Positions 632 through 39,551 of a stretch of 64,000 nucleotides of DNA are shown here, piece by piece. The notes below the pieces were generated by a model that saw nothing but the letters and a program-made list of their open reading frames with translations, did not search any database and was not told where the DNA came from. The stretch is from Lysobacterales bacterium (GTDB lineage Bacteria > Pseudomonadota > Gammaproteobacteria > Xanthomonadales > SZUA-5). The stretch's first letter is position 1; the number at the start of each line of letters is the position of its first letter. The translations under genes were made by a program, and so were the position numbers. The stretch lies in the NCBI GenBank assembly GCA_022844135.1, contig JALHMG010000003.1, forward strand, positions 1 through 64,000, in the 5' to 3' direction.

Positions 632-3600
632 TCAATCGGTACCGGCAATCCCCAACACCAACGGCGCGCCGCGCAGGGCGCGCAGGCGTAACGTCGTGGT
701 GCCGGGAGGTTGGTCGAGCCGGACGTGATAGACGAAAAGTTGCGGGCTGCCGCCGCCGCGTTCGCGGGACTCGGCGGTGCGCACGATGAGGGCTACGTCC
801 GCGCGCGGCAGATGGGCGCGTTCGGGATCGTGGATTGCGCCGTCCCAGGAGGGCGGCACGGACACATCGCGGCTGGCGAGTGTACGACCTGCCGCATCCA
901 AAAAATCGGCGGCAAACGCGGGATCGCCGATCAGTTGATTGCCCAGGAAGAAGTGCACACGTCCACCCGTTGGTGCATCTACCTGCGCTTCGGCGGGAAA
1001 AACCGCCGCGCCGAGTGCAGTGCCCGCAGGCGCCAGCTGCAGAGCCGGGCCGAGATCGACGTCGACACCGCGCAGGCGCATGCGACCGCGCGGCCAACCT
1101 GCGCTATCGGTGATGCCGAGGCCGCGACTGCTGCCCTGAAATCGTTGCCCCGCGGCGACGTTGAATGGCACCGGCGGCTGGGTGATCGCGGCGACCGGGA
1201 GAGGCGGCGGCGGGCCCGAATCGCGCGCCGTGCGATCAGCAGCGACTGGACCGGCATCGCGTGAGGGCAATGCATCGTGCGCTTCGGCGCGCAACGCAAC
1301 AAGATCGCGGCGATCCGGCTGAAGTGAAATCTGGTGTCTGGTGCCGTAATGGCTCACAGCAATCAGTGCGTTATCTGCGAATGCCAGCTCGGCGATAACA
1401 TCGTTGCGCGCCAGCGGCAGCGCTTGCGGCGCCAGCAAAGGCGACAAGGTGTCTAGCGCATAGAGGTGGATGGCCGCCCGGGTGGCAAAGGCGGCCAGGC
1501 GGCCATCGGCGGAAACCGCTGCGGCTTCGTTCCAATCGCTGCCGAACTCGATCAGCTCAGAACGCGAATCGCCCTCGTACACGGCGACGCGCGCGCCTGT
1601 ACCCAGCCAGCGTTCCCCCAGTTCGAAGACGCGATCATGCGCGTTCGGCGTGGCGATCCGTCGCAGCAATTGGGGCGGCGTGCCCAAACGCCATTGCTCC
1701 AGAGTGCCTGGTTGCAAACGGCTGACGGCGGCCGTGGCGATCAACACACGGTCCCCGGTTATCGCCAGATCAGCAATACGCAGCGCCGTGTTTTCGATGA
1801 CCATCGCCCCGAGAGGTCGACCATCCATACCGAAAGCGAACAAGCGCGGACCTTGCCAAAATGCCCAGCGATCGGCGCCGAAACGAACGCCATCGACCAG
1901 GCCGCTGCTTGAGACGGGCTCGGATCGCCATTCGCCGTGAGTCAAGTCGAGGATGCGCCAGGTCATCGTCAACTCGCCCTCGTCTTCGATCCACGCGACC
2001 AGCGCCAGCTCTGACGTCGGATGGACAACCAGCGTTTGTGCGCTGCTCGGTAACTCCAGAGTACGTCGCTCGCCGCTGCGCTCGATGTAAAGCGCGCGGC
2101 CCGCCGCCATGAGGACAGCGCCGCCGGCGGAGCGCTCGATGCGATTCGGCGGCGCCGGCAGCGACCAGTCGCCGCTGGCGAGCGACACGACGTTGCCCGC
2201 AACGGGTAAGTCTGCGGCTGGTCGCTCGGTTTCGCCTGGGAGCCAGGGCGCAAGCGTCAGCTCTGGCTGCGGCAGCCGCGTGAGCAGAATATCGCCCTCG
2301 CTGCCGTAGCTGGCCAGCAAGCCGCTCGGCGCATGCAGCGCAACTGCGTTCATGCCGATGAGCGCGCCGCGATGACGCAGCATCGCCAGCGGTTCGGAGG
2401 GCTCATCGCCTTTCGCGGCGAATGGCCAGACCGCGACACGGCCGTCGTTGCCGATCAGCCACCCGCCCAACGGGTCGACAATGACCGAGTTCATCCGATC
2501 GCCGCCCGAGGCCAAGGCGCGCGTCAGCCAACGGCCGCTGCTGATCGACAGCAATCGCACGCTGCCGCGGCTGCCGCTGACGCCGAGCAGATCGTCGGCG
2601 AAGCCAAAGTCGTTGACGGCATCGTCGGCGCTCAGAAGCGTTGTCTTCTGCGTCCTGAGATCGACCAGGAGCACATCGCCCGCCGTTCCCCCAATGGCCA
2701 GCCAGGCGCCGTCGTTGCTCGGCAACCACGCACCAATTTCGCCGCCACTGGGTAGCTCGATGCGTGCCAACGTGGCGGCTGTTTCGGCGTCGATCAGGAC
2801 GACGCGCTTGAAGCCCTGCTCGGCGCAAGCCGCCAGACCGCGCGTCGTCAGATGGCAGTAGCGCGAAGCGACATCGAATTCGACACCATCCGGCGACCAG
2901 GGATCGACGCGCCAGCGCTGCCAGCCGCTCGCGGTTTTCAGTAATGCGTGACGACCGTCGGCGGCAAAGCTTTGCGCCAGCGCGGTCACGGGTGGTGTGG
3001 CGAGCGAGCCATCCGCCAGAGTGACGCGTTGCATCGCGCTGACATCCGGACGTGCGACGCCCGAGCTGCCACTGGAGTACAGCACGGCATACGCGCCATC
3101 GGGCGTGGCCTGCATGCGTCCAGCGAAGCTGTTGCCCCAGGCGGTGGGCGGAAACGGCGGCGTAATCCGCCAGCGCTGGGCGCCATCGAGCGCCAGCGCA
3201 GCCAGTTCGCCATTGCGCAAGCTGGCCAGCAGCAGCTGACCATCCTCGGCGATGGCGATTGAGCGCCCTTCGCCGCCGCCGTCGAGGCGAGCGATCTGCC
3301 TGGGGCTGCGCGCGAGCAGCGCGCCCAGACGCAAGCGGTCCAGTTCCGCATCGTTGCGGCTGCCGCTGCGCTCCGCGTCGGCGATGTTGGCCACAAGCGC
3401 AGGTACGGCCGCCAGCGCATCGCCGCGCGCCTGCGCCTCGATCGCACTTTGCCGGCGCGCATCGAACAGTGTCGCTTGCGCGGCCGCGCGGTGATTTTCC
3501 GCTTGTCGCCATAACGTCACTGATAGCGCAAGACCCGCGAACAGCGTGCATGCCAATCCACCCGTCAACAGCGCTGCTCGCGGCTCGCGGCGCGCCCATA

Positions 3601-17136: not shown

Positions 17137-17159
17137 CCTCTCCCTTGACGCGGGGGAGG
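17137..17159. repeat. Intergenic CTCCC/GGGGG palindrome
   Basis: In the 158-nt nusA-infB spacer, CCTCTCCC (17137-17144) pairs imperfectly with GGGGAGG (17153-17159) across TTGACGCG. The CCCTTGA.C...GGGGG pattern resembles the palindrome found within the DUF969 gene at 38318-38336, which suggests one dispersed family. There is no U-tract, so it is not a standard terminator. Confidence 0.45.
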
Positions 17160-36044: not shown

Positions 36045-36824
36045 CTAAAGCCGCGGCAGAGCGTAGTCGACGATCAACGGCGCGTGGTCGGAAAACTTCT
36101 GGTCGCGGAACACGTTGGCCACCTGCGCTGCGCCGCGCAGGTTCGGCGTGGCGATCTGATAATCGATGCGCCATCCGACATCATTCGCGTACGCGTTGCC
36201 GCGGTTGCTCCACCAAGTGTATTCCGCCACGCCGGGTTTCAATTCGCGGTGCGTATCGACCCAACCCGATTGATCGAGGAGGCGGTCCATCCAGGCGCGC
36301 TCGTCCGGCAGAAAGCCCGAGTTTTTCTGATTGCTGCGCCAATTCTTAAGATCGATCGGCTTGTGCGCGATGTTGTAGTCGCCGCAGATGATGAAGCGCC
36401 GACCGCTGCTTGCCAGCCCTTCAAGATAAGGCTCCAGATAAGCCATCACTTCAAACTTGTGCGCCTGACGATCGGAGCCCGACGAGCCGGATGGCAAGTA
36501 CAGCGAGACGATCGACAAATCGCCGAAATCGGCCTGCAGCCAGCGCCCCTCGGCGTCGAAACGCCGCGCGCCGATGCCGCTGACAAAACGGTCGGGTCGC
36601 TGGCGCAAGTACAGCGCCACGCCGCTGTAGCCACGCGTCTCCTCGGCATCGCGGAAGTAACCAACGTAACCTTCGATACCGAAATCCTCGGCGGCGCGTT
36701 CGGGCGCTTGCAGGCGCGTTTCCTGCAGCGCAATCGCATCGGCATCTTGGGTGGCAAGCCATTGCAAAACGCCTTTGCGCGTTGCCGATCGAAGGCCGTT
36801 AAGGTTCAAGGTGATGATGCGCAT
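36045..36824 (-). CDS. xthA: Exodeoxyribonuclease III
   Basis: Protein of 259 aa from MRIITLNLNGLRSATRKGVLQWL; the longer frame continues upstream through repeat DNA. AP-endonuclease/exonuclease motifs are LQETRLQ (metal-binding Glu), YSGVALYLRQRP, SLYLPSGSSGSDRQAHK, CGDYNIAHKPIDL, WWSNRGNAYANDVGWRIDY and DQKFSDHAPLIVDY with the catalytic Asp-His. It repairs abasic sites and removes 3' blocks. It converges with the sugar dehydrogenase. Confidence 0.95.
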   Translation of the reverse strand: MRIITLNLNGLRSATRKGVLQWLATQDADAIALQETRLQAPERAAEDFGIEGYVGYFRDAEETRGYSGVALYLRQRPDRFVSGIGARRFDAEGRWLQADFGDLSIVSLYLPSGSSGSDRQAHKFEVMAYLEPYLEGLASSGRRFIICGDYNIAHKPIDLKNWRSNQKNSGFLPDERAWMDRLLDQSGWVDTHRELKPGVAEYTWWSNRGNAYANDVGWRIDYQIATPNLRGAAQVANVFRDQKFSDHAPLIVDYALPRL

Positions 36825-36920
36825 GGTGGACTTACGCAAAGAAGAGGTCGCAAGGCTACCGCGACTCGCGAGTCGTTCTACAGCGTGATGCTGCTTTCTC
36901 TCCAAACACCATTGACTTGC

Positions 36921-37021
36921 GTCTTCCCCGCGAAAGCCGGGATCAGTGACTCGCTGGTGCTCTGCACCCAGTGTAAGTCCAACCGAAGACGAACGGCACT
37001 GGATTCCCGCTAACGCGGGAA
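36921..37021. repeat. Pair of TTCCCGC/GCGGGAA palindromes
   Basis: TTCCCGC (37004-37010), TAAC, GCGGGAA (37015-37021) is a perfect hairpin. A similar, less perfect one (CCCCGCGAAAGCCGGG) lies around 36926-36941. A related sequence, TTCCCGC-CTTC-GCGG-AA, occurs at 48736-48752. They look like one REP-like family in intergenic DNA. Confidence 0.6.
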
Positions 37022-37090
37022 CAACGAGCGTATGGTGCTTGAAGGGATAACGCACGAGCATCGCGCCATGGCGCGACCCACATTAGACTC

Positions 37091-37807
37091 ATGGCTATGC
37101 ATATCGACCTCAATGCGGACCTGGGCGAAATGGGCGCGGAATCGCCCGACGACGCGCTGCTCGCGCTGGTGTCCTCGTGCAACATTGCCTGTGGTGGGCA
37201 CGCCGGCGACGATGGCTCGATGCGGCAGGTTGTGCGCATGGCAGTTGAGCACGGTGTTGCAATGGGTGCACACCCGAGCTTGCCGGATCGGATCGGCTTT
37301 GGGCGGCGCGATATTGCGCTGGACGCGGCGACGTTGCGCGCAAGCCTGCGCGCACAGATCGGCGATCTGATCGCGATTTGTGCCAGCGAAGGTGCAACGC
37401 TGACGCACGTCAAACCGCATGGCGCGCTGTATCACCAGATGGCGCGCGACGATGCCATCGCACAGATGATCGCAACGGTCATCCTGGAACTCGACTCGCG
37501 GCTGACCTTGTTCGGCCCCACCTGGGGCGATTGGGCCAAGGTCGCGAAAGACCATGGCCTGCGCACGCGGATCGAAGGCTTCGCCGATCGCCGCTATCGG
37601 GACGACGGAACGCTCGTTTCGCGCAGCGAACCGGATGCACTGTTGCACGGTAGCGCAGCCGTAGAACAAGGCGTTCGCCTGGCGCGCGGTGGCCCGCCGC
37701 AAATCGATACGCTGTGCGTGCACGGCGATGGCAGCGATGCCGTTGCGCTCACCCAGGAGCTGCGTGCGGCTCTGATCGCAAACGGTATCGAGATACGTCG
37801 ATGCTGA
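37091..37807 (+). CDS. pxpA: 5-oxoprolinase subunit A (LamB/YcsF family)
   Basis: Protein of 238 aa. MHIDLNADLGE is the family start, followed by SSCNIACGGHAGD, GAHPSLPDRIGFGRR and VKPHGALYHQM, with Asp and His residues expected at the active site. PxpA works with PxpB and PxpC to hydrolyse 5-oxoproline (pyroglutamate) to glutamate using ATP. PxpB and PxpC are not in this window; instead the gene is followed by DUF969, DUF979 and pcp, all with overlapping ends, so the operon appears to handle pyroglutamyl peptides. Two closely spaced ATGs (37091, 37097) are possible starts. Confidence 0.94.
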   Translation: MAMHIDLNADLGEMGAESPDDALLALVSSCNIACGGHAGDDGSMRQVVRMAVEHGVAMGAHPSLPDRIGFGRRDIALDAATLRASLRAQIGDLIAICASEGATLTHVKPHGALYHQMARDDAIAQMIATVILELDSRLTLFGPTWGDWAKVAKDHGLRTRIEGFADRRYRDDGTLVSRSEPDALLHGSAAVEQGVRLARGGPPQIDTLCVHGDGSDAVALTQELRAALIANGIEIRRC

Positions 37808-38631
37808 CGCTGGCGCTCCTGCCGCTGGCGGTGGTCGTGCTCGGCTTCGCCGCGCGCCAACATCCCGCTCGTGTGGTGCTGCTGGCGATGCTCACGGCAG
37901 GTCTGGTTGCCCTACCCTCGGTATCGGCATTTCTCGAGCTGGTTGGAACCCAATTTCTCAAAGCCCGATACCTGCTGGTGTTGATGTTCGCGCTGCCCGT
38001 CATCGCCATTCTCGAACGCCACGGATTGCGGGCGCTGGCGGCGCAACTGGTGCGCGGCTGGAAAGGCGTGCGTACCGGGCGCCTGCTGCTCGCGTATCTC
38101 GCATTGCGTCAAGGCAGTGCGGCATTGGGATTGACGAGCCTCGGCGGCCACGCACAAATGGTGCGGCCGTTGGTAGCGCCGATGGCGGAGGCAGCGGATG
38201 GCGACAAACATGGCGAGCCCCCATCGACTGGTGCGCAGTCGCTTTCCGGCCCGGCGGCACAGGCGCCGGTAGTTCGGATCGGCACACGCCTTTCGGCGTA
38301 TGAGCGCCGATCCTCACCCCCCTTGACTCAAGGGGGCAACAACAGCCAAAGCCTGCTTGGAGAAAATTTGACTCAACTGGCAAGAAACGGCTCCGACAGG
38401 AACTCTAGCGAAGAGGTACGCGCTCTCGCGGCAGCAACGGATAACGTTGGCCTGTTCTTTGGCGAGGATTTATTCCTTGCCTTCGGTGCCGTGCTCTTGA
38501 TGCAGGCGTTCTTTGCCGAGCGCGGCATCGAGTTGACGCCGCTGTCGATTGCGCTTTGGGGTATTCCCACGGCGATTCTGGCTTTCGTCATTCACGGTGC
38601 GCGGCTGTTGTGGCGCGATCGCAGGCGATGA
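37801..38631 (+). CDS. DUF969 membrane protein with internal insertion
   Basis: Protein of 276 aa; family members are about 230 aa. It starts at the ATG overlapping pxpA by 7 nt (MLTLALLPLAVVVLGFAARQ). Hydrophobic helices and LAYLALRQGSAALGLTSLGGHAQMVRPLVAPMAEAA, then ALAAATDNVGLFFGEDLFLAFGAVLL, are conserved blocks. Between them, residues about 134-205 form a polar, low-complexity stretch, encoded partly by palindromic DNA (38276-38336), which is longer than expected. DUF969 and DUF979 are thought to form a transporter, probably for pyroglutamate or its peptides. The stop overlaps the DUF979 start. Confidence 0.85.
   Translation: MLTLALLPLAVVVLGFAARQHPARVVLLAMLTAGLVALPSVSAFLELVGTQFLKARYLLVLMFALPVIAILERHGLRALAAQLVRGWKGVRTGRLLLAYLALRQGSAALGLTSLGGHAQMVRPLVAPMAEAADGDKHGEPPSTGAQSLSGPAAQAPVVRIGTRLSAYERRSSPPLTQGGNNSQSLLGENLTQLARNGSDRNSSEEVRALAAATDNVGLFFGEDLFLAFGAVLLMQAFFAERGIELTPLSIALWGIPTAILAFVIHGARLLWRDRRR
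38276..38336 (+). repeat. Palindromes within the DUF969 gene
   Basis: GGATCGGC (38276-38283) pairs with GCCGATCC (38306-38313), enclosing ACGCC-TTTC-GGCGT (38286-38299). Directly after, CCCCCTTGA (38318-38326), C, TCAAGGGGG (38328-38336) forms a second stem. Such symmetry is unusual inside a membrane protein gene and coincides with the extra protein segment, which suggests an in-frame inserted repeat. Confidence 0.7.
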
Positions 38632-39551
38632 GCGCGCTGACACCCATCTACTGGCTGCTCGGTGCGTACTTCGCACGCATCGCGTGGCGGGCATGGCACG
38701 GCGCAGCGCCGCGGCCACGCACACGCACCGCGTTCTATGCAACGCTCAGCGTGTTGTTCGCGTTCGGCGACTGGATGCCCGCGCAACTCGCTGGCGCATT
38801 GGTGCTGCTGGTGGCCGCCATCGCCGGTTTCGGCTTGCCCGAGTCGACGTCGAGCCAATCGGCGCAAGCGGCAGATCGCGGTCGCAGCCAGTTGCTGTGG
38901 CCGATTCTGCTGATCCCGGCACTGACGGTAGCTCTCACGCTCTTGATTCCCAAACTGGCGTTGAGTTGGCTGAGTGGCGCCAACGTTGCCGTGGTCGCTC
39001 TCGTCGTGGCCTGCGGCACAGCGCTGCCGTTGGCGCTGGCGATCACCCGCGAGCGGGCCATGCACGCCATCGATGCCGGCGGCGATTTGTTTGAAGCGAT
39101 CGGATGGGCCGCCATGTTGCCGCTGCTACTGGCCGTGTTGGGATCCGTCTTTGCCGCAGCGGGCGTTGGCGATGCGCTCGCGACGCTACTCGGTGCATGG
39201 CTGCCGCTCGACGTGCGTTGGGTCGCGGTGATTGCCTATGGACTGGGCATGGCGCTGCTGACGATGCTTATGGGAAATGCCTTCGCGGCGTTCCCGGTGA
39301 TTGCGGGCGGCATCGGGCTGCCGTTTCTGGTAAACGTTCACGGCGCCGATCCCGCACCACTCGCGGCCATCGGCATGCTGTCGGGTTACTGCGGCACTCT
39401 GCTGACGCCGATGGCGGCCAACTTCAACCTCGTCCCCGTCGCGCTGCTCGACCTGAAGGACCGCTATGCCGTGATTCGCGCGCAAGTCCCCACGGCGTTG
39501 CCGCTGCTGGCGGGCAACCTCATTCTGATCGGCGTACTTTGCTTCCGATGA
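38628..39551 (+). CDS. DUF979 membrane protein
   Basis: Protein of 307 aa, nearly all hydrophobic (about 9-10 helices), starting MSALTPIYWLLGAYF at an ATG overlapping the DUF969 stop (ATGA). Family blocks are FEAIGWAAMLPLLLAVLGSVFAAAGVGDAL, GMALLTMLMGNAFAAFPVIAGGIGLPFLV and LSGYCGTLLTPMAANFNLVPVALLDLKD. DUF979 occurs with DUF969, pxpA and pcp in many bacteria. A two-component permease for 5-oxoproline or related compounds is the best inference; it has not been shown by anything here. Confidence 0.88.
   Translation: MSALTPIYWLLGAYFARIAWRAWHGAAPRPRTRTAFYATLSVLFAFGDWMPAQLAGALVLLVAAIAGFGLPESTSSQSAQAADRGRSQLLWPILLIPALTVALTLLIPKLALSWLSGANVAVVALVVACGTALPLALAITRERAMHAIDAGGDLFEAIGWAAMLPLLLAVLGSVFAAAGVGDALATLLGAWLPLDVRWVAVIAYGLGMALLTMLMGNAFAAFPVIAGGIGLPFLVNVHGADPAPLAAIGMLSGYCGTLLTPMAANFNLVPVALLDLKDRYAVIRAQVPTALPLLAGNLILIGVLCFR

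Follow-up and report, generated by a model that had tools for sequence, protein, structure and literature searches.

The DUF969 membrane-protein gene in the window (the whole 64-kb stretch of DNA analysed here) contains extra DNA that we regard, with high confidence, as a copy of the hairpin-rich, non-autonomous mobile repeat E1, which was inserted in frame and left the protein working. The protein would have kept working because the reading frame stayed open and the loop in which the copy lies tolerates changes in length. The gene, its two neighbors and the parts of the E1 copy are located as follows:

37091 to 37807, plus strand: LamB/YcsF (PxpA-like) gene, upstream, overlapping the start of the DUF969 gene (Pfam PF03746)
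37801 to 38631, plus strand: DUF969 membrane-protein gene with the insertion, 276 amino acids (Pfam PF06149 in two stretches; open reading frame and codon map)
38216 to 38408, plus strand: E1 repeat copy, 193 nucleotides, corresponding to consensus positions 64-253 (nhmmer E 1.8e-46; blastn 86% identity over 38218-38408)
38251 to 38269, plus strand: GC-rich hairpin in the middle module of E1, not perfect in this copy (single-strand DNA fold)
38276 to 38313, plus strand: first palindrome, GGATCGGC...GCCGATCC (fold; the E1 consensus has a hairpin there too)
38318 to 38336, plus strand: second palindrome, CCCCCTTGACTCAAGGGGG (fold; the E1 consensus has a hairpin there too)
38405 to 38408, plus strand: CTAG, the intact right terminus of E1, spanning codons TCT and AGC of the gene (right-end alignment; codon map)
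38628 to 39551, plus strand: DUF979 gene, downstream, whose ATG overlaps the DUF969 stop (Pfam PF06166)

The extra DNA was recognized by comparison with a sister-species genome of the same genus (G001), which is the source of the DUF969 ortholog and of most E1 copies. The Pfam DUF969 model matches the window protein in two stretches and the sister-species protein in one. Between the conserved blocks PMAEAA and EVRAL there are 72 residues in the window protein and seven in the ortholog, a surplus of 65 amino acids or 195 nucleotides, and the DNA at the loop measures 217 nucleotides in the window and 22 in the sister species. The long loop was present in none of the 23 other DUF969 proteins kept in an alignment with relatives (28 rows, four of which repeat another row). 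The preliminary description had proposed that an extra stretch of about 50 residues in this protein is a palindromic repeat placed in frame. The extra loop and its nature stand, since the relatives do not have the loop and the repeat recurs in the genus, but its size had been set too low. The reading as an insertion compares one gene in one assembly with other species, and it points to a gain in the lineage of the window rather than a loss in the sister species. Upstream of these genes, on the minus strand (36045-37061), an open reading frame that resembles exonuclease III by eye has an N-terminal extension (VVPALAGIQ...DPGFRGEDA) resembling a dispersed repeat read as protein, which we take to be a common Proteobacterial repeat motif.

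The match at 38216-38408 is more than chance because the segment belongs to a dispersed repeat (nhmmer E 1.8e-46), and at E<10 the E1 profile has no other match anywhere in the window. As a single strand it folds more stably than all 200 dinucleotide shuffles (z -3.19), and the fold contains both stems, 38276-38313 and 38318-38336, at the coordinates originally given for the palindromes. A further stem, CCCTTGACGCGGGGG at 17142 between nusA and infB, had been thought to be a recurrence of the same element. It is short, it does not match the E1 profile, and it was discarded as an E1 copy. The first 63 nucleotides of the consensus are absent from the window copy, and with this left end missing the target site and any duplication there are unreadable. 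Relative to consensus 64-253 the copy has a net gain of three nucleotides (indels of +4, -1, +1 and -1 as aligned). Over 188 aligned columns it carries 11 changes present in under 2% of the other copies, here called private, and 16 that it shares with a minority of them. No Rfam family matched E1 at the gathering cut-off, either in the window or in the three other loci searched (L011, L132 and L008). Elsewhere in the window, positions 452-497 of the plus strand match the Rfam family Acido-Lenti-1 RNA with 42.2 bits against a cut-off of 37.

The E1 consensus, built from 15 copies, is 253 nucleotides long, starts with CTAGCGAGGCTTCGCCTCAGACC and ends with GTCAAGGACTCTAG. It has CTAG at each end and several hairpins, one of them next to the left end. 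In the window's own genome a 121-nucleotide probe from the loop found two weak matches and, besides the copy it came from, one good one; in the sister species it found at least 40 matches (40 of 154 candidates scored). With the full consensus there were at least 17 matches in the own genome (40 of 51 candidates scored), two of them good, including the window copy, and 15 weaker, whereas the sister species had at least 54 among the matches listed (40 of 249 candidates scored). Counts of the termini with up to three mismatches gave 182 left ends and 107 right ends in the sister species versus four of each in the own genome, and a reversed-pattern control gave none. The own genome's matches other than the two well-preserved copies are either fragments or short forms that have decayed. 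When 200 genomes of the order were searched, E1 was found in two, both of this genus (E up to 1e-8; at most three candidates scored per genome), and a search of plasmids and phages gave no match. Weak matches of 31-42 nucleotides in three other genomes of the family were taken as chance or as the shared GC-rich hairpin. Judged from these sequence searches, E1 appears restricted to this genus within what was searched. The literature searched contained no report of the E1 repeat, of an insertion in DUF969 or of such an event in this lineage.

The forms and termini of E1 were analyzed in a set of 150 copies or fragments, the window's included, from loci picked from the matches rather than at random. 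Both ends are present in 93 copies, of which 49 measure 220-256 nucleotides and 44 measure 109-185. The short form, mostly 168-185 nucleotides, mainly lacks consensus 87-160. No two-ended copy longer than 256 nucleotides was found in this sample, where pieces were joined only across gaps of less than 120 nucleotides. The left tetranucleotide is CTAG in 52 of the two-ended copies and CTAA in 16, the right one is CTAG in 56 and CTAA in eight, and both are CTAG in 39. Tandem copies have one CTAG in common. Beyond CTAG there is no terminal inverted repeat (shuffle P 0.997). The stretch of the sister genome syntenic with the window offered no clean empty site; an E1 copy there is at the border of a segment without homology.

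E1 has repeats of other kinds for neighbors. A second family, E2, is bounded by CTAG on both sides and has a terminal inverted repeat of 25 bp (TGTGGTGTCCC...), and a copy near position 210400 of contig C1 of the own genome (L003) measures 237 nucleotides including its CTAGs. E2 and E1 have a GC-rich middle hairpin in common, and at four loci of the sister species (L018, L136, L137 and L154) E2 adjoins E1 across one shared CTAG. By its sequence, E2 looks like a non-autonomous derivative of the IS630/Tc1-mariner type. A third hairpin repeat at CTAG sites (CAGGCTGTTGAGAAACAGCCTG... and GCGAACCATGGATGGTTCGC, with variants) was observed beside E1 or E2 at sister-species loci L009, L037, L132, L133 and L137.

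The most likely way for E1 to have moved is in trans, by a transposase targeting CTAG-like sites. A search covering two transposase families and the sampled E1 copies found no transposase with E1 ends. One candidate source of mobility is an enzyme of the IS630/Tc1-mariner kind preferring TA within CTAG, a serious possibility that falls somewhat short of probable. IS630 itself reportedly has this preference, as Tenzen and Ohtsubo are said to have described in 1991. The predominance of CTAG at both ends of E1 (52 and 56 of 93) agrees with such an enzyme, as does the presence in the same genomes of E2, with its 25-bp inverted repeat and CTAG, sharing CTAG with neighboring E1 copies. The lack of a terminal inverted repeat in E1 speaks against it. 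The sole DDE_3 match in the two genomes also gives it no help: it is the 3' end of an IS630-type transposase that the contig edge truncates (bases 1-240 of contig C53 of the own genome, L194). Its position is as would be expected if it belonged to a multi-copy insertion sequence, and as a partner candidate it was set aside, since neither E1 nor E2 ends were seen next to it. Enzymes of this group duplicate TA (PMC2170065), and duplication of TA alone leaves the pairs of CTAA with CTAA unexplained.

A rather unlikely alternative is a mode of movement like that of IS200/IS605 or REP elements, in which E1 would be cut at a tetranucleotide as a single-stranded hairpin, with no DDE transposase involved. 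E1 has the features that such a mechanism would lead one to look for, namely no terminal inverted repeat, a hairpin beside the left end and a favored tetranucleotide at both ends. However, none of 16 loci with Y1 (RAYT/IS200) transposases, taken from eight of nine genomes of the family with about 1.5 kb on each side (less at contig ends), contained an E1 match, and the Y1 transposase was rejected as a partner. The agreement of the two ends is a further difficulty. Left and right tetranucleotides are the same in 45 of 93 copies (permutation P 0.0002) and CTAA is paired with CTAA five times (P 0.003), which suggests duplication of the target. This argument is weakened by the other tetranucleotides, as CTGG, TTAG and CCAG show no excess of left/right pairing (P 0.37, 1 and 1) and 11 of the 16 copies with CTAA on the left carry a different tetranucleotide on the right. 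In addition, the counts of agreement include tandem copies, and shared age could also add to them.

The structure predicted for the host protein by AlphaFold2 from 24 sequences (mean pLDDT 75.9, pTM 0.60) has helices flanking the loop. The pLDDT values fall under 50 at residues 143-174 and 176-179, so the E1-coded loop is predicted to be disordered. The positive-inside rule was applied to its orientation and, together with the basic C-terminus, would place the loop in the cytoplasm. Judging by the PxpA-type neighbor, the DUF969-DUF979 pair may take up 5-oxoproline. The loop probably does nothing useful. It is improbable that the insert has been put to use, either as a regulatory segment of the transporter or through mRNA hairpins that tune translation of the overlapping DUF979 gene. 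If true, this would explain why the copy inside the gene is one of the two well-preserved copies in its genome.

Selection on the host protein was assessed from the regions on both sides of the loop, where the ratio of dN to dS against the sister species (Nei-Gojobori) is low. The 132 codons upstream gave dN 0.024 and dS 1.16 (ratio 0.02), and the 72 codons downstream gave dN 0.016 and dS 1.39 (ratio 0.011). Both lineages together show nine amino-acid-changing substitutions in the flanks, when about 25.7 would be expected had these been unconstrained since the insertion (P 1.4e-4); for the downstream flank alone the figures are 2.5 and 9.4 (P 0.017). The expected numbers derive from the rate of 11 private changes per 188 columns of the insert, and the test is rough, as "private" depends on the copies sampled and the age of the insertion is not fixed. 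At that level of precision it argues that the protein has been under selection with the loop in place. The gene, which has no stop or frameshift, looks still functional. Absence of a stop would mean little taken singly: the frame stayed open in 47% of simulated copies with 27 random substitutions, and the open frame alone is weak evidence for this reason. The same figure, and the length and predicted disorder of the added loop, are what one could invoke in favor of a pseudogene in the making, in which the insert destroyed or impaired the protein and the frame is open by luck. Considering the dN/dS ratios on both flanks, the deficit of amino-acid-changing substitutions and the intact frame, we consider this highly improbable.

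The other E1 copies were then compared with the window copy for reading frame and position. Frame 3 of the consensus has no stop over the 253 nucleotides and is the frame used in the DUF969 gene, and the consensus length minus one CTAG is 249, a multiple of three. The 45 full-length copies, which include one from the own genome, are distributed 18, 15 and 12 over the three frame classes of length. The frame used in the DUF969 gene is open in ten of them and another frame in 13. Of 36 long copies over consensus 61-252, 15 keep the register, and in seven of these the frame is also open.

With respect to position, no copy in the sister species was clearly inside a recognizable gene among those covered, mostly by inspection (at least about 100 of the 182 left ends). 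The preliminary suggestion to look for the palindrome inside other genes gave no clear case among the copies inspected in that genome. Besides that of the window, open frames spanning E1 were found at 22 loci of the sister species (29 rows); 19 of these loci were judged on sequence, and L013, L037 and L164 on codon-position GC alone. Most of the spanning frames look like a wrong frame or lie upstream of a start codon. L013 and L014 are ambiguous, with short flanks of some coding character. At L025 (about 1197-1715, minus strand) a 56-codon frame whose GC is of the coding type continues into two E1 copies, and E1 could here encode the C-terminal tail of a gene product. In the frames at L005 and L036, the Pfam domain is wholly downstream of E1. 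A translated search of the sister genome (150 of 354 candidates scored) added, among the matches listed, six regions with large open frames, in which E1 falls within the first 84 residues in eight of nine frames and makes up the last 11 residues in the ninth. For the sample inspected, a consistent reading is that E1 is a mainly intergenic repeat and that the window copy is a rare survivor inside a gene. Directly upstream of start codons, E1 copies were also noticed at L190, L192 and L156 of the sister species, for instance before a LysR-type regulator and an LptA-like gene (both named by eye), where they may affect expression.

It is scarcely credible that E1 is embedded in proteins as a selfish element in the manner of the palindromic elements of Rickettsia, selected to be translatable and spread mainly by way of genes. 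In favor of this, one frame of the consensus is open, the length minus CTAG is 249, and the window copy is read in that frame. Against it, the three frame classes are populated 18/15/12, the frame in use is open in ten of 45 copies and another in 13, 15 of 36 long copies are in register (seven of these also open), and the spanning frames inspected in the sister species look like a wrong frame or lie before a start codon, apart from a few short ambiguous ones. Coding selection of that type was discarded on the frame statistics and the position of the other copies. The likeness to Rickettsia drawn in the preliminary description holds for the in-frame outcome. Membership in such a family is not supported, as the copies inspected in the sister species are mainly intergenic and the frame is open in ten of 45.

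E1 can be placed among known small repeats by description. The Rickettsia palindromic elements are described as palindromic repeats of about 150 bp that lie in frame inside conserved proteins (PMC10969869, PMC3733652). The window copy, and it alone, is like them in being in frame inside an otherwise conserved protein. E1 differs, by the same descriptions, in being mainly intergenic as inspected, with a frame that drifts among copies, and it is instead confined, as searched, to one Lysobacterales genus. The ERIC and RU elements of enterobacteria, intergenic mobile repeats whose open frames also occur in annotated genes including one for a putative inner membrane protein (Delihas 2007, PMC2759123), are 103-168 bp long, whereas E1 has a 253-nucleotide consensus, CTAG ends and a different host lineage. 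QMITE1 and QMITE2 of Coxiella are reported with dozens of copies per genome and some in frame in the middle of open reading frames (PMC5896051). E1 resembles them in its many copies and, in the window copy, in lying in frame within an open reading frame, but they have terminal inverted repeats and direct repeats of other kinds, and E1 lacks a terminal inverted repeat and ends in CTAG. REP sequences with GTAG/CGTC tags (PMC3733652) are tetranucleotide-tagged palindromes that also occur inside genes, like E1; they measure 20-40 bp, while two-ended E1 copies measure 109-256 nucleotides and have several hairpins and CTAG in place of the GTAG/CGTC tag. The association of REP with Y1 (RAYT) transposases was not seen for E1 (none of 16 loci). 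E1 is similar to a MITE, being short, multi-copy, dispersed and without a transposase of its own, but it does not have the terminal inverted repeats of a MITE, and nothing is common to its two ends beyond CTAG. The same absence separates it from a non-autonomous IS630/Tc1-mariner element, which its neighbor E2, with terminal inverted repeats, resembles.

The evidence above suggests the following course for the insertion of E1 into the DUF969 gene. Most likely after the species split, an E1 copy would have entered the gene in the lineage of the window, probably at a CTAG-type site, in a part coding for a variable loop. The copy would have arrived in, or been trimmed to, the only reading frame of E1 without a stop in the consensus, and 63 nucleotides would have been lost at its left end. 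The protein would keep working with a disordered loop about 60-65 residues longer than that of the sister species.

In-frame insertion of small mobile repeats is already known in other bacteria, and E1 is a further case. In-frame fusions of MITE open reading frames are called "not unusual" in a review (PMC10969869). What the DUF969 gene adds is a clear example, with the uninterrupted sister ortholog at hand, of a mobile repeat taken up into a conserved membrane protein, apparently still functional. The case extends in-frame repeat insertion to a further lineage, where one species has E1 in abundance and its sister has hardly any left.
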